Part shown: positions 24,842 through 49,652 of the stretch, piece by piece | Layout: each line of letters opens with the position of its first letter | Position numbering within the stretch: position 1 is the first letter of the stretch | From: Plicaturopsis crispa FD-325 SS-3 | Taxonomy: Eukaryota > Basidiomycota > Agaricomycetes > Amylocorticiales > Amylocorticiaceae | Length of the DNA stretch: 64,000 nt | Reading direction: 5' to 3' | Assembly (NCBI GenBank): GCA_000827205.1 | Contig: KN832555.1 | Location: 626,366 to 690,365, forward strand | Made by a program: the position numbers and the translations under genes | The notes under the pieces: model-generated | Seen by the model: the letters and a program-made list of their open reading frames with translations, nothing else | Told to the model about the DNA's origin: nothing | Databases searched by the model: none

Positions 24842-27800
24842 ATGATATTCAATGGTATCTTTTCATCCCATGCCGTTCGAACCTTGCTCATTTGTGTCTA
24901 GGGGCGTCAACGCGCACGCAACAAAGCCTCGCCATATTGGATGCATCTCTGCAGGCGATACTGGCTAATTGTAACGTCGTTCCGCGAGGATCCCCGGAAC
25001 AAGAGTAAGCCAATCATCTGTTTAACGTGTATTTACTTACTCAGATAATCGGTCAAGATGGTATTTTCACGATATAAGTTCTCCTTCACGTGCTAGCTCG
25101 TTAACAAATATAGAACGACAACTTGCGTACCTTGAAGATATGAAACACCAATGGGATCCATGCAATATCGCACTTCCTGAGGCTTGGCTGGTAAGTGCCT
25201 TATCATCGTCTGTAGTGAAATGTCCCATTTGTCAATGCCGACGTTTTTCATCGACTGCTGCAGCACGATCTTCCTCAGGACGACAACTTCGGCAGGCAAC
25301 ACGCAGGGAAATTAAGATTGGTCATATCCGCTCTTCTGCAGCTTGTGATCAATGATATCAGGCGCATTCCAACTTCTGAAGTATACGAACGCAACAAAAA
25401 CATCTTCAGCCTCGCACCGGATTTTTGTCTATCGGTCCCACGGGCCAGGCCTCGCAGCTGTAAATTCGGTGAACATATGGACCTTGAGCACTCCGAGCAC
25501 TGCCAAATGGTCTTATCATCATTTCTCGACTACTCCGGAACGGAGTCGTCAGCAGAATTCTGCATTTCGAATATGTTCACGGGTGTCCCAGGATGCTGGA
25601 TGAGGCGGTAAGTGCGCGTACAAGGCTCCATGGTGTTTCCTTATTGATCTTGGTATACTTAGAGATCCGTCAACTTCTTTCCCTCCGGTACTCGATGTTG
25701 CTTCCGATGTTCGTACGCGCCTCGATTTCGCCCTTCTCTTGCACCAATATTGCCCATTTCACCCGACGTCTGCAGAGCGCGATTCTTTTCTACGGATCAG
25801 TGCCACGCACCCTGCACTTGTTCTGGCGGTAAAGGGTCCGGTCCCGTGGATTGACGACTTGTCGTCGCAACGCCCTGGGCAAACCATGGGCAGCATCTTA
25901 CAAGACTTGGCCCTTCATGCTCAACCTAGCGTTGACCTCATGCTAGCGACGCTGCATTTGCGTCATCAGCAAGAACTCGGGTCCAATGGGCATCTGGGTC
26001 CCGAACTGCCCGACTTTGCTTGCATAGTCGGCTTAATATTCGACGCGGAAGCTGTCTCCATTGTCGCGCACATCCCCGTGGTACCTCAGCGACACTCGAA
26101 TACACCTACAGCTCCTGGTGCAATGTCAGGACCACGGTACATTTCACATATCGTCGACACCCTCCCTTTCCCTAGCCGCCCAAGCCCTGGGAGTACTATC
26201 CAAGAATGGATAGTGCAACGCCTTCGAGTAGCTACTGCTCTACTCACTATCCAGCGCCACGCGCATCGTTTATCGGCAATATGGGACGATGTGATGCTGC
26301 CTCAAAACATCCGAGATGGCGATGATGCTCTCGAGACGGAATCTGCATATATGGGCCCATGCGTCCTCCGTAGCCCCAGCATTGCGGTCAACGAGTATGC
26401 AGGCCCGGTGTTCGAAATTGACGAGGAAGCTTGGCAGACCTATCTCGGCTCCGAAGACGAAGAGGATTCGGACAGCGAGGCTCAGTGTGCGCTAAATGAG
26501 AGGGTGGAGCAATGGAGAGAATCGGTGAGTTGCTATTGTATAGATGTTGTCCAAGTCATCGTGAGTTGACGAAGTTGCCTATCAGATTCACTCGGACGCA
26601 TATACCCATCTTGACCTTTGCTCCGTGGAATTTCCAAATGCTCTGCATACCGATTCAATTCAATCACCATGTTCAACACCACTCCCTGAACCTGATGTTC
26701 AACTGTTCGAGTAAGTTTCGCATTTCTCCATAGTTCTGTTACTTTTATACCGACCATTTTTTTACCAAACAGGCCCTTCGGGGAAGACACGCGAGGACAC
26801 AGTACCATGCCCTTTTCAACTATATATCCATGGACCTATCCCGACCTGACGCCGCTTGCTCACGAACGGTACGCTCATTCTTCGACTCGTTGTAAATTAC
26901 CTATCAGTACTGTGAGTGTTAACCCTTCATGCTTTCGTGGCGTTAGCTGGCATTACGGTCGTTTCCTCGACCAGAGCAGCCGTTCCCCCGTGAGCCGCGG
27001 AATTTCCGACATGTGCTCTACTCTCAACAGGATTTATGCCTTTTTCCTACCTGAAAGCTGGGTGGTAAGCTCTTTATACATTCGCTGTAAGTCGCCGCTG
27101 ACTATCAGTATCTAGACATCGGATCCCGCAAGATACCCTGAGTCTGCCCCTGCATGGTATAAGCCTCAGAAACGTGCCATACATTTAATGAGGCTTGCCC
27201 TAGTCCTTCTCCACAGTATAGAACCTATACCCGACCACGAATACACCGTTGACCCACCATACCCGGAGCCCGATGTCTATCTCAACCCTCATCGTGCCGA
27301 CGAAGACCCACGCTCACTTCACAGATCGCTCGGCCACATGTTCTCAAATGCTACATTAACGTCCTACGAAATGCCCTATGCAACATTGATGACCGATGTC
27401 CTTCGCGGGTTTCTTAATATTCCACTATGCTCTTTGACACGGTGCGAACCCTTGTTCTACTCGTTCATGCAGGGGCTGCAACTTACACCCATTCATGTTA
27501 TTTTATCGTTAGTGATACATCCTCCAGCCCATTCGGTCCTGCTCTGGTCGTTCGCGCTACTCAACTAAGCTGTCAGATACCTATTCTGGTCGCGCTTCCG
27601 TGGTTCGTTCAATACCAACATGCGGCCCACCACTTCGCCACATTCTTCGACGAGACGCTCTCCTTCCTGGTCGATCTATTCACTAGAGATGCTGGGGATC
27701 ACGCGGGGGATCTCAACGATCTCATCCCTCGTTGGTGCTTTCTCTTTGGGGTCGTTTACAGTCCTGAGGGTGTTGTCATGTCCGCACACAGGCCGGAATG

Positions 27801-27987
27801 GAATGCAGAGGGGCAAAAATGGCATTTTCTAACGACGGAGCTTTCTACCAGATACAAGGGCTCGTTCGCAGTGAGTGCTGTATCACGAGGCGAACTTCCG
27901 GCTACTCTTCTTGTCATTCAGCGACACACTGCACATTTCAAACAAAATCTTGACGCATACATAGCGTCAAAAACTCACAGATCCTAA
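24842..27987 (+). CDS. Unknown two-module protein A (family A/B/C)
   Basis: Large multi-exon gene, paralogue of the gene at 44138. The start is uncertain: ATG 24842 gives MIFNG spliced to ASTRTQQSLAILDASLQAIL. Module 1: YLEDMKHQWD, ALPEAWL|intron, LQLVINDIRRIPTSEVYERN, SAEFCISNMFTGVPGCWMRR|intron|D, THPALVLAVKGPVPWIDD, FDAEAVSIVAHIPVVP, LLTIQRHAHRLSAIWDD. An acidic linker follows (LGSEDEEDSDSEAQ). Module 2 repeats the order: FFLPESWV|intron, LVLLHSIEPIPDHEYT, NATLTSYEMPYATLMTDVLR, LTR|intron|D, IPILVALPWFVQ, IPRWCFLFGVVYSPEGVVMS, AHRPEW, LLVIQRHTAHFKQNLDAYI. The introns marked have the same place and phase in both modules. No signal peptide, membrane span or known catalytic motif. Tail-to-tail with the methyltransferase gene. 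Function unknown. Confidence 0.75.
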
Positions 27988-28160
27988 CAAGCAGTTGTAG
28001 TGACGACAGCGATGTATTAGGTTATGGAGATATAAATCGATGCTACTAGTTCTATGATTTGAGATATGATGCTAACATATGGCAACCAACAAAGAATTAA
28101 AAACAACACTGGGCGCTGGGAGTGAGCGCTGTTGAATTCGAGTGGGGTCAGCCTTCCTGT

Positions 28161-31100
28161 CTATGCGTCATCGACAACGATAGCCTCCTCCCTGTCCTGA
28201 GCCCATTTCTTGAACATGGCGGCCTTGATCTCACGGCCTATAGCGGTCGCCACAGGCCATGGTACAGCATTCCCAATCTGACGGTGCATCTGTGGGCGAT
28301 GTTTGTGTCATTAGCTATCAAGGAACTGTTCTCCGGGATACTCACGGTGACTACATCATCGTTGATGGAATGGAACACAAAGCTATCAGGGAACCCTTGC
28401 GAGCGCGCTAGTTCACGGACTGTAACCATACGTTTACACTAAGAGTAAATGAGAAATGTGCATCGAGGTAGGTGACACTGCACGTACATATGGATTGAGC
28501 ACTCGACTCTGTTTTGCCGTCGGCTCCATATTCGTCACAGTCGTTGAGAACCACTCTTTGGATGCTGTTCAGTCAGGCCCTAGGATACTGAGAATATGCT
28601 TACTCTCTTTGTCTAGTCTTCCGTAAAGCCCTACACCGATCTTGTCAGCAGACTTGAAAAGACAGTCGAGGATAAAGTATACCTGGACGCCACCCTGATT
28701 TACCAACCGCTGAAGACGGATTGGCAAACTGCCACTCGTAGTCCTCTTGTTGCAGAGCTATCGCAGGCATGTTTTAGCACAGACCACGATTTCGAACAGA
28801 TCATCGCTTACATCGGTAATCTGCACCTGCCTGGAGAGGGATATTAATCACTCTGTCTACCTTCTTAGGGACCATGCTGCGCGTGTACTGCTGTAAGTCG
28901 CTCGTAGGTTTACGTCGACACCATCGCTGGAATGACGTATAGGGCTGGTGTCGATATTGAGCTGTATCTTCTCCATGGAATCCGACTTGCCGCGAGCCCT
29001 CACAGGAAAAGGCCGGTATTTTGAGGACTTCAGCACGATGACGTGCCTCCCGACGTCGCTCCGGGGGCTGGTTGGATGAATTTGAGTATTTCCTAGTACC
29101 AAGCAGTGTATAAGGAGGCGCCGAAAGCAAACGGAAGAAACATGCATACCAGTCAAACCAAGGCAAGTCTCGGATAGCGTCGTCAATCGTGACAAACTTG
29201 TGCGGCGCATTTCCGGTTACGGTACTGAACGAAGAGATTGTCCTTCCGTTGGGTAGCTTGATTTGTAGGGAATCTACGAGCGGGAAATCGTGTGTCGGTC
29301 GGGGGAGCGACGGCAGCGGGAGGCCCTGTTTTGCGGCGATGAAGAAAAAGCGAACACGAGCTTGCGGCGTCCCGTAATGTGCAGCCTGCAGTAGACCAAA
29401 CCGTACTTGGTACCTCGGATATGTGTGAGTATGCCATAGATCATGGAATGGTCAGACAACAACCTACTGCATTGCAAGCATTGCACGCACAACAAATTTG
29501 AGGCCTCCCATGTCGATTCCACCATCCACCTTGTGTTTGGATTCTTGAATTGCGTTGAGGTTGTACTGGAGAAAACCCCGGACATTCTCGAAGACGCAGA
29601 AGTTGGGCTTCAGGAAGTCGACCCACGACAGAACATTTAGGATTAAGTGACTCTTGCTGTCATCCGCCTTTTGGAACATGTTGAGGCGGGAGTGGGTCTG
29701 ACTGTGGGGAGGGTCAGTTGCGGCCCAGGTGCAGTGAGAAAATGCTTACCATGGAAATCCTGCGATGACACATTCGAAGTTTCCGGGTTGAGGCGGCAGC
29801 GGCATCCGCGTTTTAGAACCGTCCATACTGAGCGGGGCATCGACAGGGTGTCGCTGGTGTGTTTTGATGGCGTATCGCAAGATTTCGTTGGAGCACTGGT
29901 TGTATACAACCGTATCCGGAGAGTTATGGCTGGTTTCTGGACACGTTAATCCAAGATGAAAACAATAGTGAAAATGACGTACGCGAGAGTTTTGGCGGCA
30001 CTCGGAGAAATCTCTACGGCGTGAGTGGTCTTGAAACAGCCCACCTCACTAAGTCCCAGACCAAACGCACCAACACCACCGAAGGGGTCAAACGTCCGCA
30101 ATGGTTCGGTAGCAGCGAAGGCTGAGAAGACAGTGAACCGATTTACCTCTTCCCACCTGGCCTGGTAGCAAGTGCCACAGACGTGGAGGGCGTCGGGACG
30201 CAGTCGGGTTCGCTGATCCCAGGACTTGACTTCTAAGGAAGGAAACTGGTACGTAGCGAGGAAATGGTCAGGCGAAAAGGAGAGCCAATTTTCGACTTCA
30301 CCATCCTCAATCGAGTCCAAGGGGCACACGAAGCAGACACGGATTAATGCCTTGACAGGAATCTGCTCTTGTTGAGTAGTGAGAAATAACTCTCGCTGTG
30401 GCACACTATATTAGCAAAGTCCGACCGGAAAATAGACAGACATGGGTGGAGTCGGCATACCTCGTTGCGATATTTCGTGGCGGGATATGAGGAGATCGAG
30501 GTCACACGACCAAGTGCTTGCACCGTAACCAGAATTGTACTGTCACGGTGAGGGCGTCTTGGATGCTGGACTGAAAGAATATGGCCGACATGCGCAGGGC
30601 CGTGGTCGGACATGTAGAGCACGAAATCATTCACATGGTAATCTATACCATGCAAAGATACACCGTTATGGATCTGTCGGCCGTGCTCGTCGCGGTCTCT
30701 CTGAGCTAAGAGGGGGCACACGGGGCAGTTGTTGGGCGGGTCATCTGCAAGGGCCATATGACGAGAATCAGGATCCCTAAAACACGCCGTGTGTGTATCG
30801 TAGTGAAATCTGTAGAACCAAGCACATTCAGAGAAGCAGGAGACAGATACTAGACCAGCTAACCTGTAGTAGTACTCTTCGGCCTTGAGTGGGGGCCTCC
30901 CAGATTTGTTGACCCATGAATGAACTGTGACCTTGCCCACAATCGTGCTGAGGTCAACCATATCGCATATTTCTGTCATGAATAATTCATGGCTATCCGA
31001 CACCTCTTCCATTACGGTTCTTGCGCTGTGCTCAAACCATTGCACATGGGCTGTACCATGCTCCGGATCTATGTATATGATCTTCGCAAACCTGAAATGA

Positions 31101-33286
31101 TGAAACCGCTGAGTCGTCTCCAGGTTCAGAATAGACTGCGACATACCAGAAATAGTCCGATATCTCTGCCTCGGATGGTATCCGGTCTGGCGGTGGCAGC
31201 TCAGGAGGCGCTGTCTCGTCGTTGTGTCCGATTGGGACAACAACAACGTCCGATACCTAGANNNNNNNNNNNNNNNNNNNNNNNNNNNNNNNNNNNNNNN
31301 NNNNNNNNNNNNNNNNNNNNNNNNNNNNNNNNNNNNNNNNNNNNNNNNNNNNNNNNNNNNNNNNNNNNNNNNNNNNNNNNNNNNNNNNNNNNNNNNNNNN
31401 NNNNNNNNNNNNNNNNNNNNNNNNNNNNNNNNNNNNNNNNNNNNNNNNNNNNNNNNNNNNNNNNNNNNNNNNNNNNNNNNNNNNNNNNNNNNNNNNNNNN
31501 NNNNNNNNNNNNNNNNNNNNNNNNNNNNNNNNNNNNNNNNNNNNNNNNNNNNNNNNNNNNNNNNNNNNNNNNNNNNNNNNNNNNNNNNNNNNNNNNNNNN
31601 NNNNNNNNNNNNNNNNNNNNNNNNNNNNNNNNNNNNNNNNNNNNNTGAAACCGCTGAGTCGTCTCCAGGTTCAGAATAGACTGCGACATACCAGAAATAG
31701 TCCGATATCTCTGCCTCGGATGGTATCCGGTCTGGCGGTGGCAGCTCAGGAGGCGCTGTCTCGTCGTTGTGTCCGATTGGGACAACAACAACGTCCGATA
31801 CCTAGAGGATATACAGGTTCAGTGACTTTACAGAACAGCTCGGTCTCTGAAAACAAACGGACCGAATACATATCATCTCCCACGAATACAGATTTGAGGT
31901 ACTGCGAGCGTGGCTTGAGGCGATGCCGTTTATCGTGGCGGACGTTGTGGTCCGAGTCGGTGTGCGTCTTTTGCAGCAATCGCCGCAGATGGAGGCGATC
32001 AAATTTCCGGTGGTTCACAAGACCGACACTTTCTAGCGGTTTCCCGATAACGCGCAGCTGTTCTCGAAAGAGGCCTGTAGCCAACGAGGCAATGAAGGGG
32101 GTCACAGTTGTTGGATTCCTGACCCGTAGGGCAGCCAGGTCTAAGTTTCCCGTCGATGGCTGGGAGGGTACAGCCAGTATTACAGGAGCCCGTCGCTTCC
32201 CTGCGGACCTACGGTGACTGCTCGAGGCGGTATGCGAGTCAATCCCATGAAATAGTTTAGTCATAATCGGGCTAGATTTGAGGTCGTCACGATCTTCGAG
32301 GGCTCCTTCAATCAGAGAGGTCTGGATGCATCTGCTCAGTGACTAACGCGAAATATTGTCCTCTTGAATACATACTGCACTAAGGATATCGGCATCCGTC
32401 CAGTTGAAACCGTCGTGTAGGTCGTGCATGTATCGTTGAAGACTGGCAAGGGGCTCGTCTTGGTGGTCTCGGGCAAACGCGATGACTAGCTGCGCCGCTC
32501 GGTGCGGCCGATAGAAGTCGAGAAATAAAGGCTGGTATAAGCGCGACGGTGTGTCCAAACGATACCATGCATGCATCGTCTCTATCCATACCGGACTAGA
32601 ACACGATTAGTGATAGTTAGATGACAAAAATAGATATGCCCACTCGTCTTGCTGCAGAGGGTCGACAGTACAAATCAGAATAGCCCCGAGACGTATCCTG
32701 TGCACCTGAAGCTCGTCGTCAAGCCCGTCCTCCTGGCCCTCGTCCTCGTCGTTTGAAAACGGTCTAGCAAAGCCAGCGGCCTCAAATTGTCGATCGGGGA
32801 CACCGTCGTGAGTCTCAAGCAGATGCAGAGAGACAAGCTCCATGCCATGACCGGGGTCGAATATAGTGAAGTCGGTCAATACACGGACCGGCTTTGACCC
32901 ATGATCCGCTTCATCGTCGAAGTCCATGTTCACGATGAGAGCATCGTCCTCCGGACAATCTGCCTTTGTTGACTTATAAAACAAAGCTTCAGGGAGAGAC
33001 GAACGTTAGTGCCGGGTGCAACTGCGCATAAACAGTAAGTAGTAGCGAGGTGCTGACCTTTCTCGACAGCGGGTCGCTTTCCTGGCTTCACGTCGGTTGA
33101 GCGTGCGATCTGTCAGCGCAGACGTAGTAGAGACATCGGGCAACGTGTACACACCCTAGTGTTATGAAGCTCCTCTGCACCTCGCTTCTGCCCGCCGAAA
33201 GTCGCGTCGTTCCGACTGCTTAAAGGCGCGGGGTCCACTTCATCGGGAAAGCTGACTTCGAAGGCGCTGGGTCGTGAGGGAGGCAT
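28161..33286 (-). CDS. DNMT1-type DNA (cytosine-5) methyltransferase, interrupted by an assembly gap
   Basis: Starts MPPSRPSAFEVSFPDEVDPA (33286). The N-terminal replication-foci-like domain reads TDFTIFDPGHGMELVSLHLL, WIETMHAWYRLDTPSRLYQP and FYRPHRAAQLVIAF. Two BAH domains follow (VSDVVVVPIGHNDE, DYFW-FAKIIYIDPEHGTAHVQW; later YHVNDFVLYMSDHGPAHVGH). Methyltransferase motifs: I, LRTFDPFGGVGAFGLGLSEV; IV, AGFPCQTHSRLN, where the catalytic Cys codon TG|T is split by an intron (~29703-29752); VI, FCVFENVRGFL; VIII, GTPQARVRFFF; IX/X, VRELARSQGFPDSFVF and HRQIGNAVPWPVATAIG. Ends EEAIVVDDA. All core motifs are present, so it is probably active in CpG methylation maintenance. The N run at 31262-31645 with identical flanks appears to be an assembly artefact; collapsing one copy keeps the BAH frame open. 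DIM-2 would be the alternative subfamily. Confidence 0.92.
31101..31261. repeat. Left copy of 161 bp duplication flanking the N gap
   Basis: Bases 31101-31261 (tgaaaccgctgag ... gatacctaga) recur at 31646-31806 at a constant offset of 545, with no difference that I can see. Both copies encode the same start of the first BAH domain and the same 58 nt intron. This is what two overlapping contig ends look like when joined with Ns instead of merged. Confidence 0.92.
31262..31645. other. Assembly gap (384 N)
   Basis: Run of undetermined bases inside the methyltransferase gene. Because its two flanks are the same 161 bp, the real genome may have no missing sequence here, or a short tandem duplication. 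Confidence 0.99.
31646..31806. repeat. Right copy of 161 bp duplication flanking the N gap
   Basis: See the left copy at 31101. On the minus strand this copy follows on from the exon ending at MYS (intron, then VSDVVVV), so it is contiguous with the upstream gene, while the left copy is contiguous with the downstream part. Confidence 0.92.
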
Positions 33287-33880
33287 TTGACGCGTACGAT
33301 TCGTCGACTGACAGTGACTTATAGATACGAACACGAAAGCGAGAACAGACGGATTGCAAACGGCTTCAAAGCCTTCAATAATGGCCCAGAATGGGGACCG
33401 CTGGGGGACCGTATAAACGCGCGAGGCCCGCGTTAGAAGCCACGTGGTTCTGCACTCCTCGGATAATCGAACCTGGTGAGAAGACGTTCCTGCTAAGTAT
33501 ACTGGCAGTGAGTCCTCCCAAACAGCTCCTCAGTTCTCCCTTTCAAGTCGAAGCAACTGTATACTACAACGAATAAATTGAGGTTTATACCTGTACGTGT
33601 ATAACAGGGCTACATATGATACTGTTGTTGCTTTCATGATCAAGGGGTACTAAGAACTACAGAGCGTTCGGGAGAAAGATTGAGACGACAGAAGTGCCAG
33701 GAGGAGGCGGCGGGGTGAGATATAGTTATGGGAAGAGGCGGCACTCGATTGCGGACCATAGAGCGAGAGCAAGATATGCATGCGTCTAAAGTAACCCAGA
33801 GACCGCCAGACGCAACGGAAAGGAGGCACTGAACCAAGATAAGAGGAAAGGAAATTCAAAACACCAGTGCTACGTACGGC
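33287..33880. other. Gene-free interval
   Basis: Between the starts of the methyltransferase and the 3' end of the Hog1-type kinase, both minus strand. It should hold the methyltransferase promoter and the kinase 3' UTR. No repeat or further gene seen. Confidence 0.45.
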
Positions 33881-35659
<1,779 letters not shown>

Positions 35660-36150
35660 CGTTTGTCGAGGAGATCAGAGGAAAATGGCAGCTAGGGTCC
35701 TATCGTCGAGAAAATCGTTGAAACTGGCAGGATAAGAACGAGTGAAACAGCTTGTGTGCAACGAAAGGAAAGACGACGAGCGGATTGACTGAGTGCCAAA
35801 ACCGTAACGGTGACCTCAGACTCCAAAAGCGTTCGGCTACAGCCGCTTCGCGCAAACCACAAAGTATGTAGACTCTTTTCCCTCCACACATGTATGCACC
35901 TTCACGGTCGCCTCATAGGCCTATAATCCAATCATTTGATCTCTAATACTGTATCTAAAGCTCTCAGTGCGCCACAGGTAACACTGATATCGATTTTTAT
36001 CTACAAAATATTGTACGGCATTGGTGGAGAGATTGCCGCCAAATTTCTGGTTCCCGGTCACGACATCGGACGGGAACTTGCACAAGCGGCAGCTCCGTTC
36101 TACCCTACGGTCGACTTTCTCAGCTACACCCCCTTCAGAGCTTCAGTGAC
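35660..36150. promoter_or_regulatory. Divergent promoter, HOG1 / cytochrome b5 reductase
   Basis: 491 bp separate the two start codons. An A/T-richer stretch around 35930-36010 lies nearer the reductase. No box that I can name with confidence. A plus-strand open frame here (35936-36193) is not supported by any domain. Confidence 0.5.
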
Positions 36151-37530
36151 ATGTCTTTCATTCGAGCGGCAGCAACAGCGCGTTCAGTCGTAAATACAGC
36201 GCGCTCTTGACATCATTGACGCCCGACTGACGACGCATCTTCATAGGCGGCGGGCACGCGTCGGTTTGCGACAGCACCTCCGAGTGCTGCCCCCAAGAAA
36301 TCCTCGAACGCCCCACTCTACCTCATAGGTGGTGGATTTGCGGGAGTGGGTGCCTATTTGTATCTTGACAAGAACGGTATCCTTGCTACGAAGAAGGTGC
36401 AAGAGAAGAGCCCGCTCGACCCGAAGGAATTCCTGGATTTCAAGCTGAAGGCAGTGGAGAAATACAATCACAATACGTCTAAGTACGTGGCACACTAGCG
36501 TAGACCGCTATCAACTTCTAATTGCTTCGTGTGCCGCAGGTTTATATTCGAGCTCCCCAATGGCGAGGCGTCACTGTTACCTGTAGCATCCTGCCTTGTT
36601 GTCAGGTCGTCAGACCCGGAGGCCTTGAAAGATGACAAGGGCAAGCCTATCATCCGCCCTTACACGCCCATTTCGCCGTCGGATAAGGAAGGAGAGCTTA
36701 CGCTTCTGGTGAAGAAATACGTGGACGGCAAGGGCTCCTCACACATACACTCGCTTCAACCCGGAGACAAGCTAGCGATCAAGGGACCTTTCCCCAAATT
36801 CCCCTACAAAGGTATGTGTGTCCGAGTCAAATTGTCGTTACAGATTCATTTATCGTAGGCAACAGCTAACGAATTCGAGGATGTTGCGCTGATTGGTGGC
36901 GGTAGCGGCATGTGAGTCTCGAGCTTCGAGGCTAAATGTCGTTGCGTTGACCCGCCTAATACACAGTACACCTCTATACCAAATCCTGACCCACGCGCTT
37001 GCTGACAAGGGCAACAAGACGAAGTTCAAGCTGCTCTTCTCGAATGTCACCGAAGAGGACATCCTACTGCGCGAGGAATTCGATGACCTGAAGAAAAAGT
37101 TCCCCGATACTCTTGATGTCGTATACATCCTCGACAAGCCTCCCAAAAACTGGACTGGTACGTTATGTGCTTTACAATAATTTGTGCTGGGATACAATGA
37201 TATTTTCAGGACCGACGGGCTACATCAATGCCGACCTACTCAAGAAGCACGTCGCCCCCGCTGCCAATGGGGAGAAGGTCAAGGTATTCGTCTGTGGTAT
37301 GTACTTCTATCCCTGTGCCTTTGGCGATATGTAGTAACCGTCGATGGGTATAGGTCCTCCGGGTCAGGTCGCAGCCGTTGCCGGAAAGAAGGACGGCGGA
37401 AAGCAGGGTGCCGTGGGTGGTGTTCTCAAGGAACTTGGCTACACGGAGGACCAGGTACGTTGACCATGTTTCATTATTCTTTCTACCGTAATCCTGAGCG
37501 TCCTTCGGATTACAGGTGTACAAATTCTGA
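36151..37530 (+). CDS. MCR1: Mitochondrial NADH-cytochrome b5 reductase
   Basis: Flavoprotein passing electrons from NADH to cytochrome b5 and related acceptors. The first exon (36151-36189) gives MSFIRAAATARSV, continuing after a 57 nt intron with AAGTRRFATAPPSAAP, together a mitochondrial presequence. A single membrane span follows (APLYLIGGGFAGVGAYLYL), the arrangement known for yeast Mcr1. FAD domain: FDLPN-like FIFELPNGEASLL, IRPYTPISPSDKEGE (the RxYTxxS flavin motif) and GKGSSHIHSLQPGDKLAIKG. NADH domain: FEDVALIGGGSGI-TPLYQIL, FKLLFSNVTEEDILLREEFD, KVFVCGPPGQVAAVAG. The last exon is only VYKF and stop (37516-37530), giving the conserved EDQVYKF end. Six introns or so, all GT-AG. Complete and intact. 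Confidence 0.94.
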
Positions 37531-37774
37531 GCGGGTGTTTAAAGCCTGGCATATTGTGTGCTCCATATATTATCAGCTCGTGTCTGTCCACGGATTTGAA
37601 TAAATCACACAAACCATCTTTCCATGGAACGTTGAAAGCTCCAGCAGGCTTGTCAGCTTGCGCGTAGAGTACTCGTTAGCCCATTTGCCGTCGCAGCAGC
37701 AGCACTCGCCACAGATGGCACATTACGTAAGCTCTGCGTACGCGCCTCAGTCGCGGACTCTGCAAGTCCTGGTC

Positions 37775-37782
37775 GACGACAT
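37775..37782. repeat. Target site duplication, left copy
   Basis: GACGACAT directly before the element's CAGGGG terminus; the same eight bases follow the right terminus. Confidence 0.92.
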
Positions 37783-38651
37783 CAGGGGGGGACCGGAACC
37801 AGAAATCCGACAGTATGCCCTATAGGTGGGTGTAATTCGAAGCACCCGGTATTCGGGGTCCCGGGTGTAAAAAACGAGGCAATCCACGTGAGCGGCACAG
37901 CGGCAGTAGGTCGGTGGTCGCGTCGCGTGCGGCGTCGGTCTTAAGCGCTTGAGCACCTGCACATACAGCGCTTAAACCGTCGCGTACATATATGTATGGA
38001 GTCAATCTCAGCGACGGACTAGGTCTAGAAAGTTGGCTGAAACGTGGTTGCCACAGAAAAACGGCCGCTCATTTGCGGGTGGTAAGACTGCTGGCTCCTC
38101 AGGCTTGCCACACGCATTAGCGATACAGGTTGAGAGCGCACACAAAGCCCTGCAAAGCGCCTCGCAATTCCAGCGGTGAAAAATGTAGCTACGTGTATAG
38201 CTAAACGCAGTTCGGATAAAAGAACGAGCAATAACGCCACTCCGCGTCCGAAAATTATTAGCGCTCGCACTGATTCTGTAATAGCACACGTCGTAGGCAA
38301 AACTTTAGCTATCTCTACTCTCTGCGAGTTGTAGCAACGCCGCTTGCATACACGGATTTATTGAGCAGAACTACAGTGCATTTGTTGCAACACTGCAGGC
38401 CCTTTGAATCTGGGGCTGCAATCCTAAATCACACCCCGGAAACACTCGGATTTGTGAGCAGTACATATATCCATTGCTCCCGGACGGCTTAGGCCAAAAC
38501 ATATCGATTATCTCTAGTTTTTGTTGCTCAACGGACGAGGAACGCTGCTCAGCGCTATAGATTCAAGCAATCTTATCTTATCCATGGCCCCGGGGTCCCT
38601 TCTCGTCGCTTAGAGGCATGTTGTCGGGATTCTGGTTCCGGTCCCCCCCTG
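37783..38651. mobile_element. hAT-like MITE (non-autonomous), 869 bp, with 8 bp target site duplication
   Basis: The left end reads CAGGGGGGGACCGGAACCAG and continues AAATCCGACAGTATGCC. The right end, read inward on the other strand, starts with the identical 20 bases and continues AATCCCGACAACATGCC. Terminal inverted repeats are therefore at least 22 bp perfect, then imperfect to ~38 bp. Both ends are flanked by GACGACAT (37775-37782 and 38652-38659), a perfect 8 bp duplication. CAG(G)G termini with 8 bp duplications are the signature of hAT elements. No transposase is encoded, so it needs a partner in trans. The element ends 213 bp before the Ubp2-like start codon. Confidence 0.92.
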
Positions 38652-38659
38652 GACGACAT
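38652..38659. repeat. Target site duplication, right copy
   Basis: GACGACAT directly after the element's CCCCTG terminus. Confidence 0.92.
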
Positions 38660-38863
38660 ACTCCTTACCGATCGTGGTTTTGCCTTGTCTGCTTCATTCT
38701 GCTTTGCACCTCCATACTTCATCACAACACAACGACTTCGCATACTGAGCTCTCACACTTGACGACACGACTCACGAACGCATAACATTGGACTCGGGCG
38801 CAGCTGCAGTGGCTCACCGGGACCTTGCTCCTTTGGCAGCGTAACTATATCTAGACTGCTACC

Positions 38864-41800
38864 ATGGATAGAGGAGGCAGCCCAAAGTCAAGACGGCCTT
38901 TACCAAATCCAAAGGGCTCTCCAGATGCCCAACACACAGAGCCAAGCACTGCTGTGCCCCCGACCAGTTTCTATTCATCTAGGGCGTCTCCCAAACCGCC
39001 ACCATTACCGTCACGTCCTAAAGACGTTGGATCTTCCCATACAGGCTACAGACCTCCTCCTTCTACGCCGCCACCACCTGCATATGTGCCGGAGAAGACA
39101 CCATTTCGCGAGCCCGTGCTCGTTACGGAGGATCTGATACAGGACGATCCTGTACCCGAGCTCATTCCCCCCGATGCCGAGGGTGCACCAATCGACTGGA
39201 GTGGGGGATGGGACCATTCTACAGCTGACTGGGGAGCGCTGGATCCCACCGCGAATTGGTCCTCCCAGTCGTTCTCTAGCAAAAAGATCGCCATAGACGG
39301 TAGAAGTGAAGAGGAAGAGCGGTGTTGGTGGGACGCAGCTTCACGCGCGGAGCACAAACGTCCTGGACCTGGGATGCTTCCCCCGCTGCTGACCGATAAA
39401 CTGCATAACCCAGATCACTCTTTGTTCTCTGTGATCGTCGCGGCGCCAGAGTCAAAGCCCAACCCGGAACCTCCCTCGATTTCTCGGTCACCGCCTGAAT
39501 CTGTACAAAGTGCAGGTCCTTCTACTTCACGAGAATCTGCCACTCCGACCCCGCCTCCTCCACCCCCACCGCCGACCGCGGACGAGGTACGCACCGCTGT
39601 ACCCCATCCGAATGCATACTACTGCCGCGCACATAATGGCTGGGTGCTGCTGTGGTGGAAATCATCCTCCGTTCTTCCTGTCCTCTCGAAATCGTTCCTT
39701 AACAGCACTCACCATCGGCTGCCAGACCAAAATCGACGGAAAAAGACTGGATCGTGTGTCGGTGCCGAGGAGCAGCCATTCGGCCAAGTTAATATGACGC
39801 ACCATTTCCATCTGTACGAGAAGGCAGTCGACGCGCACAAGCTCAATCCGCCGTTCTACCGCAGTCAATGGGAGAAGGTAGAAATGATAAAGAAAAAGCG
39901 AAGACGAATAACAATTAACTCGATCGATTTTAAAAAGGGAATTGTGCCCGTAGACGAAGCCGGTGATATGGACATTGAAACTGGCCCAGAGGAAGAAGGC
40001 GATCTGCTTGATTTATATGTGTGCTGCCAGTGCTCATTGTCCTGCTACGCGTCCGAAATCATCCCTGGCGTTATCCCTGCGAAGCTGGTCAACGAGTTCA
40101 CCCGGGATAAACTGGAAAATCCTGCCGTCGACAGAAGCGGGGAAGCGGGTGTCCTCTGTGGTTGGGAAACCATCATCAAGTGCGTTGCCTCCGCTCCGTA
40201 AAGCGTTTTGAATGCGATTCGAACGCGTTCTAGTATCATCCACAACAAGTTGTGGAAAGGCGAAAGCCGTCCGCTCCCTGTGACCCGAGCGACATTCCTG
40301 AAGAAGTTGGGGTGGAATCCCATCGTGTATGTCGAGCACTGTTTCAGGTTTCTCTTCACAACTAACCAGATAAAAGTCGCCAGGTGTTTGACGCCCTAGG
40401 CTTTGAAGCGAAAATGCTACTGACACCTGGTGCTGAAGTGGAAACTCTGTCGCTATATCCCCCAGCGACAGATGTAACCACACATCAAGGCAGACAGAAC
40501 CGAGCCAGGCTACTCCGAGCATGGGTCGAGATAAGTGCTTGGGCTACTGATTTTCAGAAGCGGTTCGGTAAGTGATTGCGGGACATGCTTCACTGTACTT
40601 GGAAGCCTTATTGCGATACAGGTACGGGCCTCAAAGGATACGTTCCAGTGCCCCTACATGTCAAAGTCGAAAATGCTCGGGAGATGTACCAGTCAGGCGT
40701 GGGGGCACACCCTGACCAAAGTAAGGAGCCGAAGTCGCTGCAATGGTACGATGCTAAATATGATTTCGTTGACTTCTATCTACAGTTCCTCGAGGATTGA
40801 TTCCAGACGTCCTACGCCAGTATGAGCCCATCTCGGCTGACTGGACAGCGCTTGGCCTGACCCCTAGTTCAGCATCTTGGGGTAAGGACTTTTTTATTGG
40901 ACTTGGCTTGCGTTCTCGGCTAATCTGCGTCCAGAGCTCCTCGCATTCGCATACCTCGCCCAGTGCCGATGTGATCCCGCGAACACCGTCAACTATTTCA
41001 CGCATCTGTTCAACATCATTGAGGCCTTGAGCAATGTCGGCGAGATTCCTCCCCAGGACTTGCAGACCCTCGCCCTGGAGGAGAGATCGCGCTACCGCTT
41101 CACGCATCAGGATCTGCAGATGGCCACCGAGCGGCTCGGTTTCGGTAAAGACGGCCAACTCAGTGTTGACTTCGACGACGACGTGGAGGACGAGTTCATC
41201 GTCAACGCATGGAAAGATGCAGTTCGCAGGGCGTGGTCCGATCTCAAGGAGGGCTCACAACTTCAGCGGGATGCCAATGACGCGTTCAGGGTTATCGCAG
41301 AGAGCAGAGGCAGCGCGAAGCTGAGGAAACTGTGGGAGGATACAAACGGGAAAATCATGGACCCTGATCGGGCATACTCGACGCTCGAGGTGCCAAAGGA
41401 GACCGACGATGGGATGTTGCTAACAGTTTTTGCGATAAGGGTCAGTTGTCCATACTTTGGGTTGTCGTTCGCCGGTGAACACGTTCGCGCAGGTCCAAGA
41501 GCAGCCAAGTCAAGACGACAAGATGCGGGAAGCATTGTCTCTTATTGCCGAGATCCGCGACAGTGAACGGATACGTCAGTTCTTGCAAACAGGCGCAGAC
41601 CGTAGGTGTTCTCTCAACTTCGTTCGCACATCTCTTAGAGACTCATGCGATCATAACAGCTGGTGACATTATAGCGCCCGTTCGACAGGATCTACCCCGT
41701 GGTCTCAACCAGCTAGGCAATACGTGTTACCTTAATTCTTTGCTCCAGGTGACTATGAGCTGTGCCAATTCTCTAGCATCCTATCGCTGACCTCGGCGCT

Positions 41801-43863
41801 CAGTACTTCTATACCATAAAGGAGCTTCGCGACGCGGTTATGCCCATGGCCCACCTAGACGACAAGGCCATCGACGACGACAAGCTAACTGACGATGATC
41901 TCAAGCGGCATCGGGTCGGCGGAAGGCTTGTCACTAGGAAGGAGATCGCACGGTCCAAAAAATGTAAGTTGTTCTTCCTTATGTTCCGGGCGTATATCCT
42001 GAACGCCGCGTCTTGTATGTAGTTGTCAGCCAGCTCGCTTCTCTATTCTGGGATCTCGAACACTGCGACACCGCCTCCGTTACACCCTCCATGCAGCTTG
42101 CTAAGCTTGCTTTGACCACCTCGAGGGACGAAGAAGAGGATGAGGTCGACAAAGGCGGGACAGATTCCTCGAACGATACGGACGCGACGCTAGTTGAAGA
42201 TGGCCCTGTCCGACCGCACGGATCAGGGGACAAATCACCTCGCTCCCCTCTTCAGTCGACGGACTCCGTGCTTGGCAAGCGCCTGAGAGACGTCGAACGT
42301 CAAGGCAGCTCCATGGACGTCGACTATCCGTTGTCCCCAGCTGACAAAGACAAGGATGGGTATATCATGGTTTCAAAACCGTCTTCGCCTAGTCATTCAG
42401 GCGACGCAGGTCCGTCGGGAAAGCAGGCGACGTCTGATATCGACCTTGATGGTGATATACAAATGTCAGACCGGCGAACCGACGAGGTATCTACGAGCAA
42501 ATCGCCTCCACCAGCCATCAAACCTCCTTCGATGCCTACGAGGAAAGCATCCGAATCGGTGATGATGTTTGGTAAGGTTCAAGGTCAAGTAGTTTGCTGC
42601 GCTAACACGTCCTCATAGGCAGACAGCACGATGTGGCTGAATGCATGGATAACTGCATGTTCCAGATCGAAACAGCATTGCTCAAATTTAGCGGTCTAGG
42701 TGACTCCTTTGACGACAAGACTAGCGTTGTCAAACGGTACGGTAGTATTATGCTTAACGTTGGCTAGACTGACACATTATTGTGAAGATTATTCTACGGA
42801 AGAATCCGACAACGGTTGGCAGTCGTTGCTGAGTCTCGACGATCTCGACCTTCCATGCACGAAAAGGAAGATCTATTCTCGCATCTACCCGTAAATGTCG
42901 TCGAGGACGGTGTAGACCTTTACGACGGCTTGAGCAGCTACTTCGATGATGCTGTGGAATTCGAGGGCAAGAAAGCGCGGATGGAAGTATCGTTGGTAGA
43001 ATTGCCTCCGTTATTGCAGGTACAACTCCAGGTGCGTTCCACGGTTTCTCTCATATCGACGTTGTTGATGCTGAATTCATGTTTGTAGAGAGTGCAATTC
43101 AACCGGGAGACTCTACAACCTTACAAGTCACAAGCGCACGTGAAGTTTGGCGAAACCATCTACATGGATCGCTTTCTTGAAAGCGCGGATCCGCAGAAGA
43201 GAGCCAGAGCCAAGATCATCCAAGCCGAACTCAGCAGCTGTCGAGAGCGAATACGCCTGTTGACTACAGATAGGGTAAGTTCATCAAGCACATTCTCGGT
43301 ACGGAGGTGCTTATCATTCGCTGTTGCAGCATGCACCTTTTGAGGCAGCACTCGGTGCGACGTGCGACTTCTTGTCAAAACAGGAGGGCCTTGAGCTGTC
43401 CGAGGTGGATACAGATCTCATTGCCGAGCTTAACGACGAGCAAGCTACTGTGAGGGCGGACATCGAGGAACTTCGTGTTCGCATCGCGAAGCTCAAGGAC
43501 GACTTGGAGGCAGTTTGGGCCGACGACAAACAAGCTGCCTACGAGCTGACCTCCGTGTTCATTCACCGTGGTTCATCGCCATCTTGGGGCCATTACTTTT
43601 TCTATTCGCGACATCTCCCCGAGCACCCAGAATCGTGGTTCAAATACAACGACTCCGAGGTTAGCGAAGTGTCGAAGGACGATATCTTCGCGGATACAAC
43701 TGGCTCGACAGCAAACCCATACCTGGTGAGCAACACAGTGTCGTATCAGAAGGCTAGTGCTAACACCCCCATCGTGTAGCTGGTCTTCACGAAGAAAGAC
43801 GCCGGAATCATCCAAACCGTTAAACGTTTCAACGCCGACACATTGGAGGAAGCCGATCCATGA
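38864..43863 (+). CDS. Ubp2-like ubiquitin carboxyl-terminal hydrolase (peptidase family C19)
   Basis: Cysteine protease that removes ubiquitin from proteins. Starts MDRGGSPKSRRPLPNPKGSP; the first ~250 residues are Pro/Ser-rich and disordered, including a run of ten prolines. The region AYYCRAHNGWVLLWWKSSSV, EEQPFGQVNMTHHFHLYEKA and LYVCCQCSLSCYASEIIPGV is the zinc-binding-like N-terminal block of Ubp2 proteins. A long helical section follows (VFDALGFEAKMLLTP, DLQTLALEERSRYRFTHQDL). The catalytic Cys box is GLNQLGNTCYLNSLLQYFYT (41700-41820, split by an intron). The His box is HRGSSPSWGHYFFYSRHLPE with WFKYNDSEVSEVSKDDIF (43560-43690). Between them is an acidic linker (42120-42560) and MFGRQHDVAECMDNCMFQIE. 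Ends DTLEEADP. About fifteen short introns. Known yeast Ubp2 trims K63-linked chains on Rsp5 targets; that role is inferred here. Confidence 0.92.
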
Positions 43864-44137
43864 TCACAGACATTTATGATATTTCGTTACTTACCATATT
43901 ACCCCACTGTATCCTCTGATAGCAAATGCTTCTATGTATTGGGACGGATGTCAATGGACTGCAGCGTCTACTCCGATGAACAGGAAATAGAGACCGACAT
44001 CGTACTAGGAGTTAAGGGGGGTACGCTACGCCACCAATGATATCCCGTCTGACTAGGAGCAAGCGTCGATAGTCAAATCTCATTCTCAGTACCGACGAGC
44101 TCGTCCTTCTTATAAGTACATAGTACTGGCAGCTACT
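43864..44137. other. Short intergenic region
   Basis: Contains the 3' flank of the deubiquitinase and the promoter of gene B. Nothing else seen. Confidence 0.4.
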
Positions 44138-47100
44138 ATGGCAGCTGCAGGTGCAGCAGGATCCTTACGTAATACACAAGGAATTGGAACGCGCCAGCAC
44201 GCGCCGCGTTTCAACTTCGCATTCATCCTTTTAGAGTCATCGTACCTGCGACGGATCGGCGAGCACGACAATCTACTCCCGTCGTCCTCCTGGTACCTGC
44301 CACCAAAGTCCCTTCGTATCGGTGAGATTTCGAAACCACTGTTTTGTTGCTATTTATTTAATTGTCGTTCAGATTTCGTTTCGAGCATGGCATGCGATAG
44401 TGTCGATGCCTTTGACGCATGTCTACACACCCTGTTGTCCGAATGCCATGTACTACCACGCGGACCTGCCGATGATGAGTGCGTACGAATTTCTCCCTAA
44501 GCGCATGAGCGTGTATTTACTGAAAACATATTCAAGATGGATCTTTCGCAACGAGCCTCGCAATCTGGACGTCGATGTAAGTTCACAGCTGCGAGGTCCG
44601 CTTGCATATCTTGCAAACATGAAACATCAATGGAATACAACAAGCATAGAACTCCCAGACGCTTGGCTAGTGTGTATTTACTTCTATTCACCTAGATCTC
44701 TTTGCTTATCATGGAGATTCGGTAATAGCATGACGATATTTGCGAAGACCGCAACTTCAACAATAAACAAATAGGGAGGCCTAACCGGATCCTCTCCATT
44801 CTCCTCGAGCCCGTGCTCGACAGTATCACCCGTATCCCGTCGTCCGAAATATACGATCGCGCTCTACGCACACCCGAGGTCGCACCGGATTTTTGCCTAA
44901 CCGTTCCCCGTGCCAGGCCAGAAGAATGCCTGAGGAATGACGAATTCATGGACCTTGCCCAGTCTGCGCACTGCCAGATGGTTTTGTCAACATTTCTTAA
45001 CTACTCGGGAACAGCTTCCTCAGCCGAATTTTGTATCTCCAACATGTTTACGGGTGTGCCAGGGTGTTGGATGCGACGGTAGGTGCACTTGCAAGCTTAT
45101 GTACTTGCAAGACTAATTGTGATACATTTAGTGACCCGACCAGTGCTTTTCCTGTAGTGCTGGATCCCGGATCCCGCGCGGGGACTCCTCTAGATTTTGC
45201 GCTTCTCCTCCATCAATATGGCTCCTCGCATCCTACTCTTGTCGAGCGTGATCTATTTCTGCGAGTGAGCACTACCCACCCAGCACTTGTTCTGGCCGTC
45301 AAAGGACCAGTTCCTTGGATAGACGACCATTCACCGCAACTTCCTGGACGTACCATGGACACCATTTTACAAGATTTGGCCTTCCATGCTCAACCCAATG
45401 TTGATGTCTTGCTAGCTGCGCTGCATCTGCGTCGCCAGCAGAATTCTCTCAGGTCAAAGGAGAACCCGGATCTGGGATTGCCTGACTTTGCCTTTATCAT
45501 CGGTCTAGTCTTCGATGCAGAGGCCGTATCCATCGTCGCCCACATCCCCGTGGTACCTGACCCAAGCCCGGATGCGCCTGCAGCCTCTCTAGGAAAGTTT
45601 GGCCCGAGATATATATCGCTCACAGTCGATATACTTCCATTTACAGGTCGTCCAGGTCCCGGGACGACGGTGCAAGAATGGATAACGCAGCGCCTTCGGG
45701 TCGCTGTTGCCTTGCTGGTCGTCCAGCGTCATGCACATCGGTTATCCGCAATTTGGCAGGACATCGTCCTTCCGGAAGCCATTCGCGACGGCGAGGATGC
45801 CCTAGAATCCTCTTATCTCGGAGAATGCCCCCTCCGCAGTGTCAGTGTTGCTGCGCAGGATCTTGAAAGAACAGCGCTTGATATAGACCAAGAAGTGTGC
45901 GAGGATTGGGAAACTGATTCTGGCGCTGAGGAGGAAGATGAAGTCGACGACGACGTAACAGAGGCATATCTGGATGTGATACGAGCAAGGGTGGAGAAAT
46001 GGCTTTCGTCGGTCAGCTCTCTTCTAGCTATCGCCCCATTTGATTCTCAATTGCAACATAGATAACCCTTTCCACCGAAATTGAATGGGACTGGCAGGAC
46101 GTTGCCACATACTCCTGCAAGACCATCTCCGAGGTGGTTTTTGATGGCGTGGCGGCTTATGATTATCGGGCGCACAAGTATTATCATTCTCTCTTCACCC
46201 TATCTTTCAGTTAACATAATCCTTTCTGAACAGCATTACTGAGAATATCTCTCTCGTGCATTCCTCTGTCCGTGAATCTGCCTGTACAAGTAGGCTCACA
46301 GATCTGCCATTGCACATGCGGTATGTCTGCTTGCCAAGGTTGCAGCATATATATAAATGGATTGACAGGGGGATTTCGATAACTATAGATATTCCAACTG
46401 GTCTTTTGAGCTCTATGTTTCTCCACACCATAGGTCGTCTGTCGGCGGTGCAGTGGCTAGCATGTACCGTATGTTTCGTAATGGCAATGTGCTCACTCTG
46501 CCTGAAAGTTGGGTGGTAAGTGATTGTGTATCATCGTAGGGTTGGTGCTCGTCTAACCGATTTTCAGTCCTCGGATGGCGCGACATTTCCTCGATCAAAT
46601 ATCGCGTGGTATGAACCTCAGAGGCGCGCATTGCGATTGATGCTGCAAGGGGCGCTTTGTATCTATGGCGTCCACCCCGTTCCAGATTCCGAATTTCCGA
46701 AACATGGATCCTATCCAACTCCGGATATCCACCTGAACCCCCACCAAGCTGCTGACGATCCCCACTCACTTCGTACTTCCCTGGACCATTTTCTGGTTGA
46801 TTCTACTTTGACTTCTTACGAGATGCCGTACTCAGCATTGATGAGCGATATGCTATGCGGCTTTTTCCATATGAAAGGTTGCTCGGTAACACGGTTCGTG
46901 CATTATTTCGCCACTGGTCATTCACGTGCACTGACGGCACTTACAGCGATGTCACCCCCTTGAGTCCATTTGGCCCCGCATTGACTTTACGCATTACCGA
47001 CACTGTCATGGGTACTTCCGCACATGACTTTCCATTACTGGTGGCGCTTCCGTGGCTCGTTCAGTCTGACGATGCTGTACGCCACTTGGCAGCCTTCTAC

Positions 47101-47430
47101 GACCACTCCCTCACTTTTCTCACCGACCTCTTCGCAAAACATGCAGGATGCCACGCAGACAACCCCAATGACCTCATCCCGCACTGGGCTTTTCTAATTG
47201 GCGTTGTCTACACTCCAGCCGGCATGGTCATATATGCCCATAGACCGGACTGGAGTGCAGCCGACTCACAATGGCGATTCGTTTCAACGGAGCTCGTGCC
47301 CGAGTTCCAAACAATATTCATGACACCTTCGACTAGCCAACAGACAGCACTTGCAGACAGGCTTCTTGTTGCTCAGAGGCACACCTCGTATCTCAAGGAA
47401 TGCCTGGATCGCTACCTACCAAAGGTTTGA
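44138..47430 (+). CDS. Unknown two-module protein B (family A/B/C)
   Basis: Close paralogue of the gene at 24842, same strand, about 20 kb away. ATG 44138 gives MAAAGAAGSLRNTQGIGTRQ, joined across introns to SVDAFDACLHTLLSECHVLP. Module 1: YLANMKHQWN, ELPDAWL|intron, VLDSITRIPSSEIYDRA, SAEFCISNMFTGVPGCWMRR|intron|D (first block identical to A), THPALVLAVKGPVPWIDD, FDAEAVSIVAHIPVVP, LLVVQRHAHRLSAIWQD. Acidic linker: DSGAEEEDEVDDD. Module 2: TLPESWV|intron, ALCIYGVHPVPDSEF, STLTSYEMPYSALMSDMLCG, VTR|intron|D, FPLLVALPWLVQSDD, IPHWAFLIGVVYTPAGMVIY, AHRPDW, LLVAQRHTSYLKECLDRYLP, ending KV. Both copies are free of frame breaks where they can be compared, which argues that both are expressed genes. 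No known domain recognised; probably soluble. Followed tail-to-tail by gene C. Confidence 0.78.
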
Positions 47431-47748
47431 TTATGATATATCATTTCTCCCCGCCACTCCTTGTTTGTCCGTTATCGTACACGCATTATCTGGCGTGTTT
47501 ATCCTTAGTTCTTTCTACCATCTGTACGACGCGACGCCAGGCTTTCTACGCAGACCCCCACAATTGCACATTAACTCGAGTGATATTAATTCTGGCCTGT
47601 ACTCCCTCTTCAACTCGATAAGTACAAGGGACACGTTTGTCAATGCGCGTGCACTTGGCGGCATCCTGCGATTTCGTTATGTTGAAAATTTCAAGGACGT
47701 GTTGTTACCATGTTTCTTAGTACTTCGCGGGACATCGATCGCACTACA

Positions 47749-48090
47749 TGAATATTAATCCTCCTGAGGAAGGCAACCACGCCATTTGGACGGTCACCAT
47801 GCGCACGAACTCGATCTGCTTTCGGGAGTACACATTCAATACTCAAGCTTTCGATGCGCAGCTACCAGCTAGCGCAACAAATTCATGTTCAATGGCTAAA
47901 GACGAGCGGTAATGCACATTCTTGGGACGTGCCGTTGCGCGCTTTCATTGAAAGATGTGAAGGAAACGAATTTTTTATAGGGTACATAGACGAGGATCAA
48001 AGTCTTTTCAGTCATTGTCCGAATATTATTGAGCATCTCTATCCGGTCTTGAAAGATGTATCAGTTAGCCGTACACGAGTCAAGCAGTGA
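47749..48090 (+). CDS. Possible small protein, weakly supported
   Basis: ATG 47749 opens MNINPPEEGNHAIWTVTMRT and runs to a donor at ~47908 (GTAATG); an acceptor near 47980 (TTTATAG) would join it to IDEDQSLFSHCPNIIEHLYP with a stop at 48090. The second part overlaps the stop of gene C by 11 bp. The phase of the join is ambiguous, and no family is recognised. It might be a decayed fragment. Confidence 0.25.
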
Positions 48091-49652
48091 TCATTGCCCA
48101 CCACTGGCTCCATGTTGTGCTGCAGTCGTAGAAACACTGAGGGAAAGCATCGTCTCGGTCCAGTAACTCTGTTACTTTATCCCGTACATCGCAGGCATGT
48201 CGCTGAGCAGCTATGAGTTTTGCAGCGAGGCGAGCCCTGTCTTCAATGTCCCCAGTCTCGAGCGATGAAGCCTCCAAAGTGTCATAGCAAATAGACTTGA
48301 ATCTCCACCCGTTCTTTGTATTTTCAAAGGAATGGGCGTATAACGTAACCCCATGGTTATCGTACACTGCACCTGGCAGGAAGCACCATTTGGGCACCTC
48401 GAATGGTGTGCCATCTTGTTCATGACGGTTGAGCAGTAGCGTCAGGATGAGATTCAAAGTGGTGTGAAAGTCGGCGGCGAGTTGAGGAGATACGTCTTTG
48501 GCTTCTTTTTTGCCCTCGGCGGCAAAATAGAGGAGGGAGAGGAAGAATTTACCATTCTGTTTGAGGGTCGTTTTGACGAAGCTTGAGATGTCCGGTCTCC
48601 CCTGCGAGCCGTGTATACCTAGGAAAAGCATATTCGGAATTGCGGAGTTACTGTAGATGCAGAGATATCAGCGCTTTCGAAGACACGGATTAGTGAACAA
48701 AACTCTTGCCTGCCAAACTCCATGTCTTTAACAGAGAAGAATCCTTGCAAATGACCGAGATGGCGCTCTACCATGAGCTCTGTCCCCGCCAGCGACAGTG
48801 TTCCTAAGTGTAACAATTGGAAGATTGTACGTTTAGCCGATAACGAGTCCGATGACTCCGTTGACTTTGCGAAGCTATCGATGTTGCCTCGGGGAGAAAA
48901 ACACAACCAGGCCGGAGGCTCAATGGTGGATGTCTTCTCGTCTTTGTGACCAAATTCTAGGGGTATCTCGCGAAAGAGATTGGCCATGACTACATCACAC
49001 AAACGTGCGGTCTTGGCTGCAGGGTCCGCAGATGGAACGGTGGGTGCCGGGTCATTCTGGAATAAACGGAAAGATTTAAGATATCAATGCATGCATGGAA
49101 CGGATTGTAAGCATGGAACCTTACGAACCTTCCAGCTAACAGGAATATTGAGTGGCTCATCCGCAGCCTTTTGTCGAAACTCTTTGATAGCAGCATATAC
49201 GGGAGACAGTGGAGCGGTCGGCCGAAAAATTTTCTCAAAATCCCAGTGCAGGCCGTTCATGATTGTTGTGGTGACCGTGCTGTCGATAGACATCAGCATC
49301 CTAAGTTGAAGCAGTGTGCAACACGCATAATTACCTCGCGCTGAGCCACGCCGACGATGTCGATTCTTTTTTTCTGGATTAAGGTAGTGATATCAGATTC
49401 ACCCCAAAGATACGTGAGTAAACTATGAACTTTTTCCGCTCGGTAGTCACATTGATTCCGCGGTCCCTCATCCACTTAATGAAGGATTCGAACGCCTCAA
49501 CTTCAGCAGCCAAAGCAAGCTATGGAACATATCGATCACACTGTCAGAGACACCTCCAGAGGTTTACGGCAACGGAAGCGCACCTCGGATGCCGTGGGCT
49601 GTGCGGCATTTCGGGCGCCCAGTAAGTCTTTTCGTTTTTCTCCCGAAGGCAT
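48080..49652 (-). CDS. Unknown single-module protein C, distant relative of A and B
   Basis: ATG 49652 gives MPSGEKRKDLLGARNAAQPT, continuing after an intron with LALAAEVEAFESFIKWMRDR. Then TTIMNGLHWDFEKIFRPTAP, EPLNIPVSWK|intron|NDPAP, which matches the LPESW|DPA position of A and B and has the same phase-0 intron; LCDVVMANLFREIPLEFG; RQEFCSLIRVF; NSAIPNMLFLGIHG; VPKWCFLPGAVYDNHGVTLY, AHSFEN, NGWRFKSICYD; and LAAKLIAAQRHACDVRDKV. The C-terminal half thus follows the order of module 2 of A and B, but the sequence is far more diverged. Introns in the middle (49300-49480) were hard to place: the join through TTERKK to KKESTSSAWLSAR is one reading. Ends WSQWWAMITA. Function unknown. Confidence 0.6.

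Follow-up and report, generated by a model that had tools for sequence, protein, structure and literature searches.

A stretch of 64,000 nucleotides (nt) from the genome of Plicaturopsis crispa FD-325 SS-3 (assembly GCA_000827205.1, contig KN832555.1, positions 626,366 to 690,365 of the forward strand; hereafter the window) carries three related genes, which we call A, B and C. Genes A and B are each predicted to encode a protein of two homologous modules, one in each half, that are separated by an acidic linker, and gene C is predicted to encode one such module. Here, we bring together gene modeling, profile comparison and the placement of predicted introns, and these point to the tandem duplication of a module that already carried its introns.

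Complete ten-exon models fit A and B at the coordinates that had been proposed by a first-pass annotation made from the sequence letters, and neither spliced frame contains an internal stop (Table 1). Splice alternatives were listed up to 12 codons from each junction, for frame-preserving introns of 40-130 nt, and were ranked by a simple consensus score; on that score, the chosen splice pair is best or joint best for all 18 introns of the two genes. The two proteins are paralogues, with 425 of 855 aligned residues identical, and the three strings that had been quoted as common to both are found in each. Mismatch between A and B at codon positions 1, 2 and 3 is 0.367, 0.294 and 0.605, and synonymous change is close to or beyond saturation by a Nei-Gojobori count. 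The ratio of nonsynonymous to synonymous change (dN/dS) is 0.18, 0.14 and 0.14 in exons 4, 5 and 10, the sole single exons for which dS is computable, and 0.15 for half 1; for half 2 taken whole, and for the remaining exons examined, dS is out of range. Exons 6 and 7, which belong to the linker, have 13.2% and 9.7% identity between the two genes. The conserved blocks of A and B are the modules, whose exons are under purifying selection, and the linker is not conserved.

Table 1. Predicted genes, modules, common introns and neighbouring genes, in coordinates of the window.
Feature	Coordinates	Strand	Composition	Basis
Gene A	24842-27987	+	10 exons, 864 residues	open spliced frame, predicted from sequence
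Gene A exons	24842-24854, 24902-25004, 25058-25190, 25264-25607, 25663-26524, 26586-26710, 26773-26868, 26947-27064, 27116-27441, 27513-27987	+		
Gene A module 1	25058-26293	+	exons 3, 4 and start of exon 5	module alignment
Gene A linker	26294-26868	+	remainder of exon 5 (acidic stretch) and exons 6-7	low identity to B
Gene A module 2	26947-27987	+	exons 8, 9 and 10	module alignment
Gene B	44138-47430	+	10 exons, 930 residues	open spliced frame, splice-site alternatives enumerated
Gene B exons	44138-44321, 44373-44478, 44537-44669, 44729-45078, 45132-46011, 46062-46177, 46234-46320, 46389-46515, 46568-46893, 46947-47430	+		
Gene B module 1	44537-45765	+	exons 3, 4 and start of exon 5	module alignment
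Gene B module 2	46389-47430	+	exons 8, 9 and 10	module alignment
Gene C	48080 to about 49652	-	single module and provisional 5' part	
Gene C single module	48080-49300	-	exons 49300-49129 (true 5' limit may be 49279), 49056-48710, 48650-48080	
Gene C 5' part, provisional	49301-49652	-	ATG at 49652 and stretch encoding VEAFESFIKWMRDRGINV	
Phase 2 intron, Trp one codon downstream	A 25005-25057, 26869-26946; B 44479-44536, 46321-46388 (the last displaced by three columns)	+		
Phase 0 intron after LPxxW (LPEAWL in A half 1)	A 25191-25263, 27065-27115; B 44670-44728, 46516-46567; C 49128-49057	+ (A, B); - (C)		
Phase 2 intron in Arg before Asp	A 25608-25662, 27442-27512; B 45079-45131, 46894-46946; C 48709-48651	+ (A, B); - (C)		
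C5 cytosine DNA methyltransferase with BAH domain	28801-31801	-	open reading frame pieces	Pfam
Ubiquitin carboxyl-terminal hydrolase with RPT repeats	40886-43779	+	upstream of B	Pfam
Gene with DUF4246 (domain of unknown function)	58691-60141	-		Pfam
Open reading frame with alginate lyase domain	13896-14891	+		Pfam, E 3e-22

The two types of module are remotely related. Module 1 of A (A1) and module 1 of B (B1) are 61.0% identical and the two copies of module 2 (A2 and B2) 46.1%, and identity between module 1 and module 2 ranges from 20.8 to 25.6%. When the two copies of each type were aligned independently, giving two-sequence profiles, hhalign returned 80.5% (score 45.2, 287 columns), and 78.3% (score 44.4) after query and template were exchanged; in runs forced to be global the values were 92.7 and 94.0%, and the E-values of all these module runs are those of one single comparison. 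As a control, 100 column shuffles reached a mean score of 15.5 and a maximum of 22.7. Four further comparisons used profiles cut from the five-way alignment; in every one of them all 200 shuffles stayed below the observed score, and the scores of reversed controls lay between 12.2 and 14.9. When the module 2 profile also included C, the match stood at 93.7 and 95.1% over 78 and 77 columns. Of the three findings that the first-pass annotation had named as counting against its proposal, two were looked for and neither arose: the profile match between modules 1 and 2 is significant, and the searches described below met no known family. Direct comparison by blastp of half 1 with half 2 is marginal (2e-4 for B1-B2, and 0.004, 0.035 and 0.63 for the remaining three pairs); shuffle tests yield Z values of 6.9 for B1-B2, 3.2 for A1-A2, 3.0 for A2-B1 and 1.6 for A1-B2, the observed score being matched by 0, 11, 14 and 79 of 1000 shuffles, respectively. 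All five modules, that of C included, are identical at 19 of 410 columns, among them W, PxxW, E, G, AH and QRH, and the halves of A and B are homologous in the same order, the arrangement of an internally duplicated gene. One motif pairing proposed earlier, of SAEFCI with TSYEMPY, is not borne out in the alignment, in which the Tyr of TSYEMPY falls opposite the Tyr of DYSGTESS.

The predicted introns follow the modules. In three of the four MAFFT modes used, the five modules agree on the columns of two introns, one in phase 0 after the LPxxW motif and one in phase 2 within the Arg codon before Asp. The exon between these introns measures 344 nt in module 1 of A, 350 nt in module 1 of B, 326 nt in module 2 of either gene and 347 nt in C. 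Both introns had been named beforehand for the two halves of A and B, and the predicted splice sites agree with that claim; missing from the earlier list was a third common intron, in phase 2 and one codon before a Trp, which occupies the same column in both halves of A and in half 1 of B and is displaced by three columns in the second half of B. In each gene, the two halves carry predicted introns that correspond in position and phase. All three introns of half 2 of A are at the column and phase of their counterparts in half 1, an agreement reached by none of 300,000 random placements, or by three of 300,000 if three columns of slack are allowed. The three introns of B match within three columns (4 of 300,000 random placements), and both introns of C match (3 of 300,000).

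The tandem duplication of an intron-bearing module, as first proposed, is well supported by sequence, motif order and intron phase. Because the modules are homologous and their introns match, exons 3-5 appear to have been duplicated as exons 8-10. In the account that we favour, A and B would consist of two tandem copies of a module of about 300-390 residues together with a fast-changing acidic linker, and the duplicated unit would be a cassette of three exons, running phase 2 intron, exon, phase 0 intron, exon, phase 2 intron, exon. As a first step, this cassette would have been duplicated in tandem, introns included, within one gene; as a second step, duplication of the whole gene would have produced A and B. 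The internal duplication is probably older than the split of A and B, because each module is nearest to its counterpart in the other gene and far from its neighbour in the same protein.

Gene C carries one module. Its second and third module exons are well supported: the intron between them has GC-AG borders (59 nt, phase 2, donor GCAAGA) at the site where A and B have GT-AG, and once this intron is accepted the last exons of C are clear. The first-pass annotation was right in giving C one module and the intron at the LPxxW site, and it overlooked that the intron between Arg and Asp, with its GC donor, is present in C as well. No intron lies directly before the Trp in C, and one provisional model has a phase 2 intron slightly upstream. 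For the region upstream of 49300 several splice models were tried, none of them convincing. The 5' end of C (49280-49652, minus strand) is open only with very short or weak introns, and may be decayed or mis-modelled. The stretch VEAFESFIKWMRDRGINV in this part resembles, as judged by eye only, the N-terminal VDAFDACL stretch of B.

Does C represent the ancestral form, as had been suggested? Identity of C to the other modules is 17.2 to 24.3%, and C bridges the marginally matching halves of A and B. It is clearly closer to module 2 (hhalign 96.3%, blastp 1e-9 and 7e-9, shuffle-test Z 14.2 and 14.6) than to module 1 (hhalign 81.7% in local mode, blastp 2e-4 in both genes, Z 8.9 and 5.9), a position that suits equally an outgroup if module 1 has diverged and a single-module gene derived later. 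As the comparison includes no outgroup to root it, C may or may not be the ancestral form. Quite conceivably, although we lean slightly the other way, C is not ancestral and derives later from a two-module gene through loss of module 1, or from a partial copy of module 2, possibly with a decaying 5' end. Its greater closeness to module 2 would agree with such a descent, as would the difficulty of modeling its 5' end. However, C seems to have an N-terminal stretch in common with the region that precedes module 1, again by eye only, and its identity to module 2, at 21.1 to 24.3%, is far under that between the two module 2 copies themselves.

What kind of domain is the module? No known domain could be named for it at the outset, and the searches concur. 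In Pfam at an expectation value (E) of 1, A, B and C (the last read from 49299 on) matched no family, NCBIfam and PADLOC at E 1 returned none for ten single-exon pieces, and a sequence search of the PDB gave no match for C or for five-row alignments of exon pieces. Noggin, at E 0.11 the sole Pfam match at E 10 on the ten single-exon pieces, was taken as chance. AlphaFold models of two single-exon pieces are of low confidence (predicted local distance difference test, pLDDT, 50.6 and 49.8); both have a helix, three strands and a helix in the C-terminal part, and Foldseek searches of the PDB with the two models found nothing below E 0.17.

The PD-(D/E)XK superfamily includes degenerate members, and the module might be a diverged, catalytically degenerate nuclease-like domain of this kind that has turned to nucleic-acid or protein binding. 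We regard this as unlikely; it concerns the fold and does not conflict with the duplication. The module may bear some likeness to fungal PDDEXK consensus patterns. By eye, its order runs from an LDFALLL strand and an LVLAVKG strand, both seen in module 1, through a helix, an LPxF..IxGLxFxxxxVxIxAH hairpin and a strand to the last helix, and the helix, strand, strand, strand, helix of the low-confidence models is in keeping with that order, although models of such quality speak neither for nor against the alpha-beta-beta-beta-alpha-beta core fold of the superfamily, and Foldseek found no PDB match at E up to 0.001. Against it, no profile of a known PD-(D/E)XK family was matched: on the ten single-exon pieces Pfam yielded nothing at E <=10 apart from Noggin, the PDB sequence search gave no match, and no Foldseek entry so titled is among the best 50 of 324 and the best 50 of 144 matches. 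The E-x-K site reads A-V-K in module 1, and the pattern is lacking at the aligned columns of module 2 and C; the Asp and Lys of module 1 lie outside the 19 invariant columns, and a catalytic Asp followed by E/D-x-K on adjacent strands is present in none of the five modules.

Returning to the duplicated cassette, A and B may be soluble intracellular proteins in which the two modules, as alpha/beta domains, pack into an intramolecular pseudo-dimer, and residues that do not vary among the five modules, an Ala-His that closes a strand and a Gln-Arg-His in the final helix, could line a common site. The invariant columns, and these residues above all, suggest one site kept by both modules, and, on the strength of this conservation, the two copies would probably still share one binding function. 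A more far-reaching reading, which we put forward tentatively and would not be surprised to see overturned, is that of a fungal twin-module family with an undescribed fold, or a pseudo-nuclease fold, used for binding, in which both modules have a site of His and Gln-Arg-His and the cassette records the fusion.

Several points weigh against the favoured account. Three of the four direct pairwise shuffle tests between module 1 and module 2 are weak, the swapped local hhalign run covers 82 columns only, hhalign of the whole halves, without module boundaries, gives 15.7% and 21.2% over 32 columns, and the match of C to module 1 drops to 44.0% when forced global. Splice sites were predicted from sequence alone and picked partly with the paralogue in view, and an equal-scoring alternative with another donor exists for 3 of the 18 introns of A and B (introns 2 and 7 of A, intron 4 of B). 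In the fourth MAFFT mode, E-INS-i, the second intron of C is shifted by 19 columns. The functional part of the account draws on conservation, and the AlphaFold models are too poor to speak for a pseudo-dimer or a site. The weak pairwise and whole-half scores would also suit halves that are unrelated, or that have only short motifs in common, with intron matches due to coincidence or parallel gains, a reading rendered highly improbable by profile matches far over the shuffled controls (100 in one series, 200 with a reversed control in the other) and by three introns that agree in column and phase. Homology of the modules, their order, their common predicted introns and purifying selection are shown by the analysis, whereas the proposed fold and site are inferred; the account as a whole, in which the twin-module proteins A and B would have arisen by cassette duplication followed by gene duplication, is in our judgement very likely to be correct.

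The family has three members within the window, the scope to which the earlier count of three applies. A possible fourth copy at 3855-3989 (tblastn of C, E 0.009) was taken as chance, because a profile built from the five modules recovered nothing above the inclusion threshold except pieces of A, B and C. In viral contigs, scanned four times, 0 of 3, 0 of 18, 0 of 8 and 0 of 3 pattern matches were confirmed as relatives, and one scan of prokaryote genomes confirmed 0 of 66; a lack of viral and prokaryote relatives is expected for a fungal family and has no bearing on fungi. Among the neighbouring genes, 29 distinct open reading frames of the window were searched with Pfam, several of them without a match, so that the annotation is partial; those neighbours to which Pfam gave a name are genes ordinary for a fungus. 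The C5 methyltransferase gene lies downstream of A on the opposite strand and runs towards A, and a gene for THO complex subunit 1 (Pfam) comes after C.

At this locus, a domain duplication is clearly readable because the positions of the introns have outlasted most of the sequence, modules 1 and 2 having diverged to about 21-26% identity. Intron phase may provide a route to further family members where sequence fails, and an unnamed fungal family with two copies under selection is a target for structure work. No description of the family of A, B and C was found in the titles and opening parts of abstracts listed in a literature search, which is not proof of its being unpublished.

How does this arrangement compare with known systems? 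Fungal PD-(D/E)XK domains possibly match the modules in how strands and helices follow one another and in the pattern of the C-terminal hairpin; unlike them, the modules are without a profile match and without the set of D plus E-x-K. A parallel in architecture may be found in transferrin and serum albumin, which were built by internal duplication and have kept introns in their repeats. A and B differ from these in being fungal by look, in having an unnamed module and in their non-conserved acidic linker, and no sequence relation is claimed. Like transferrin and serum albumin, A and B consist of homologous halves whose introns, as predicted for A and B, correspond in position and phase.

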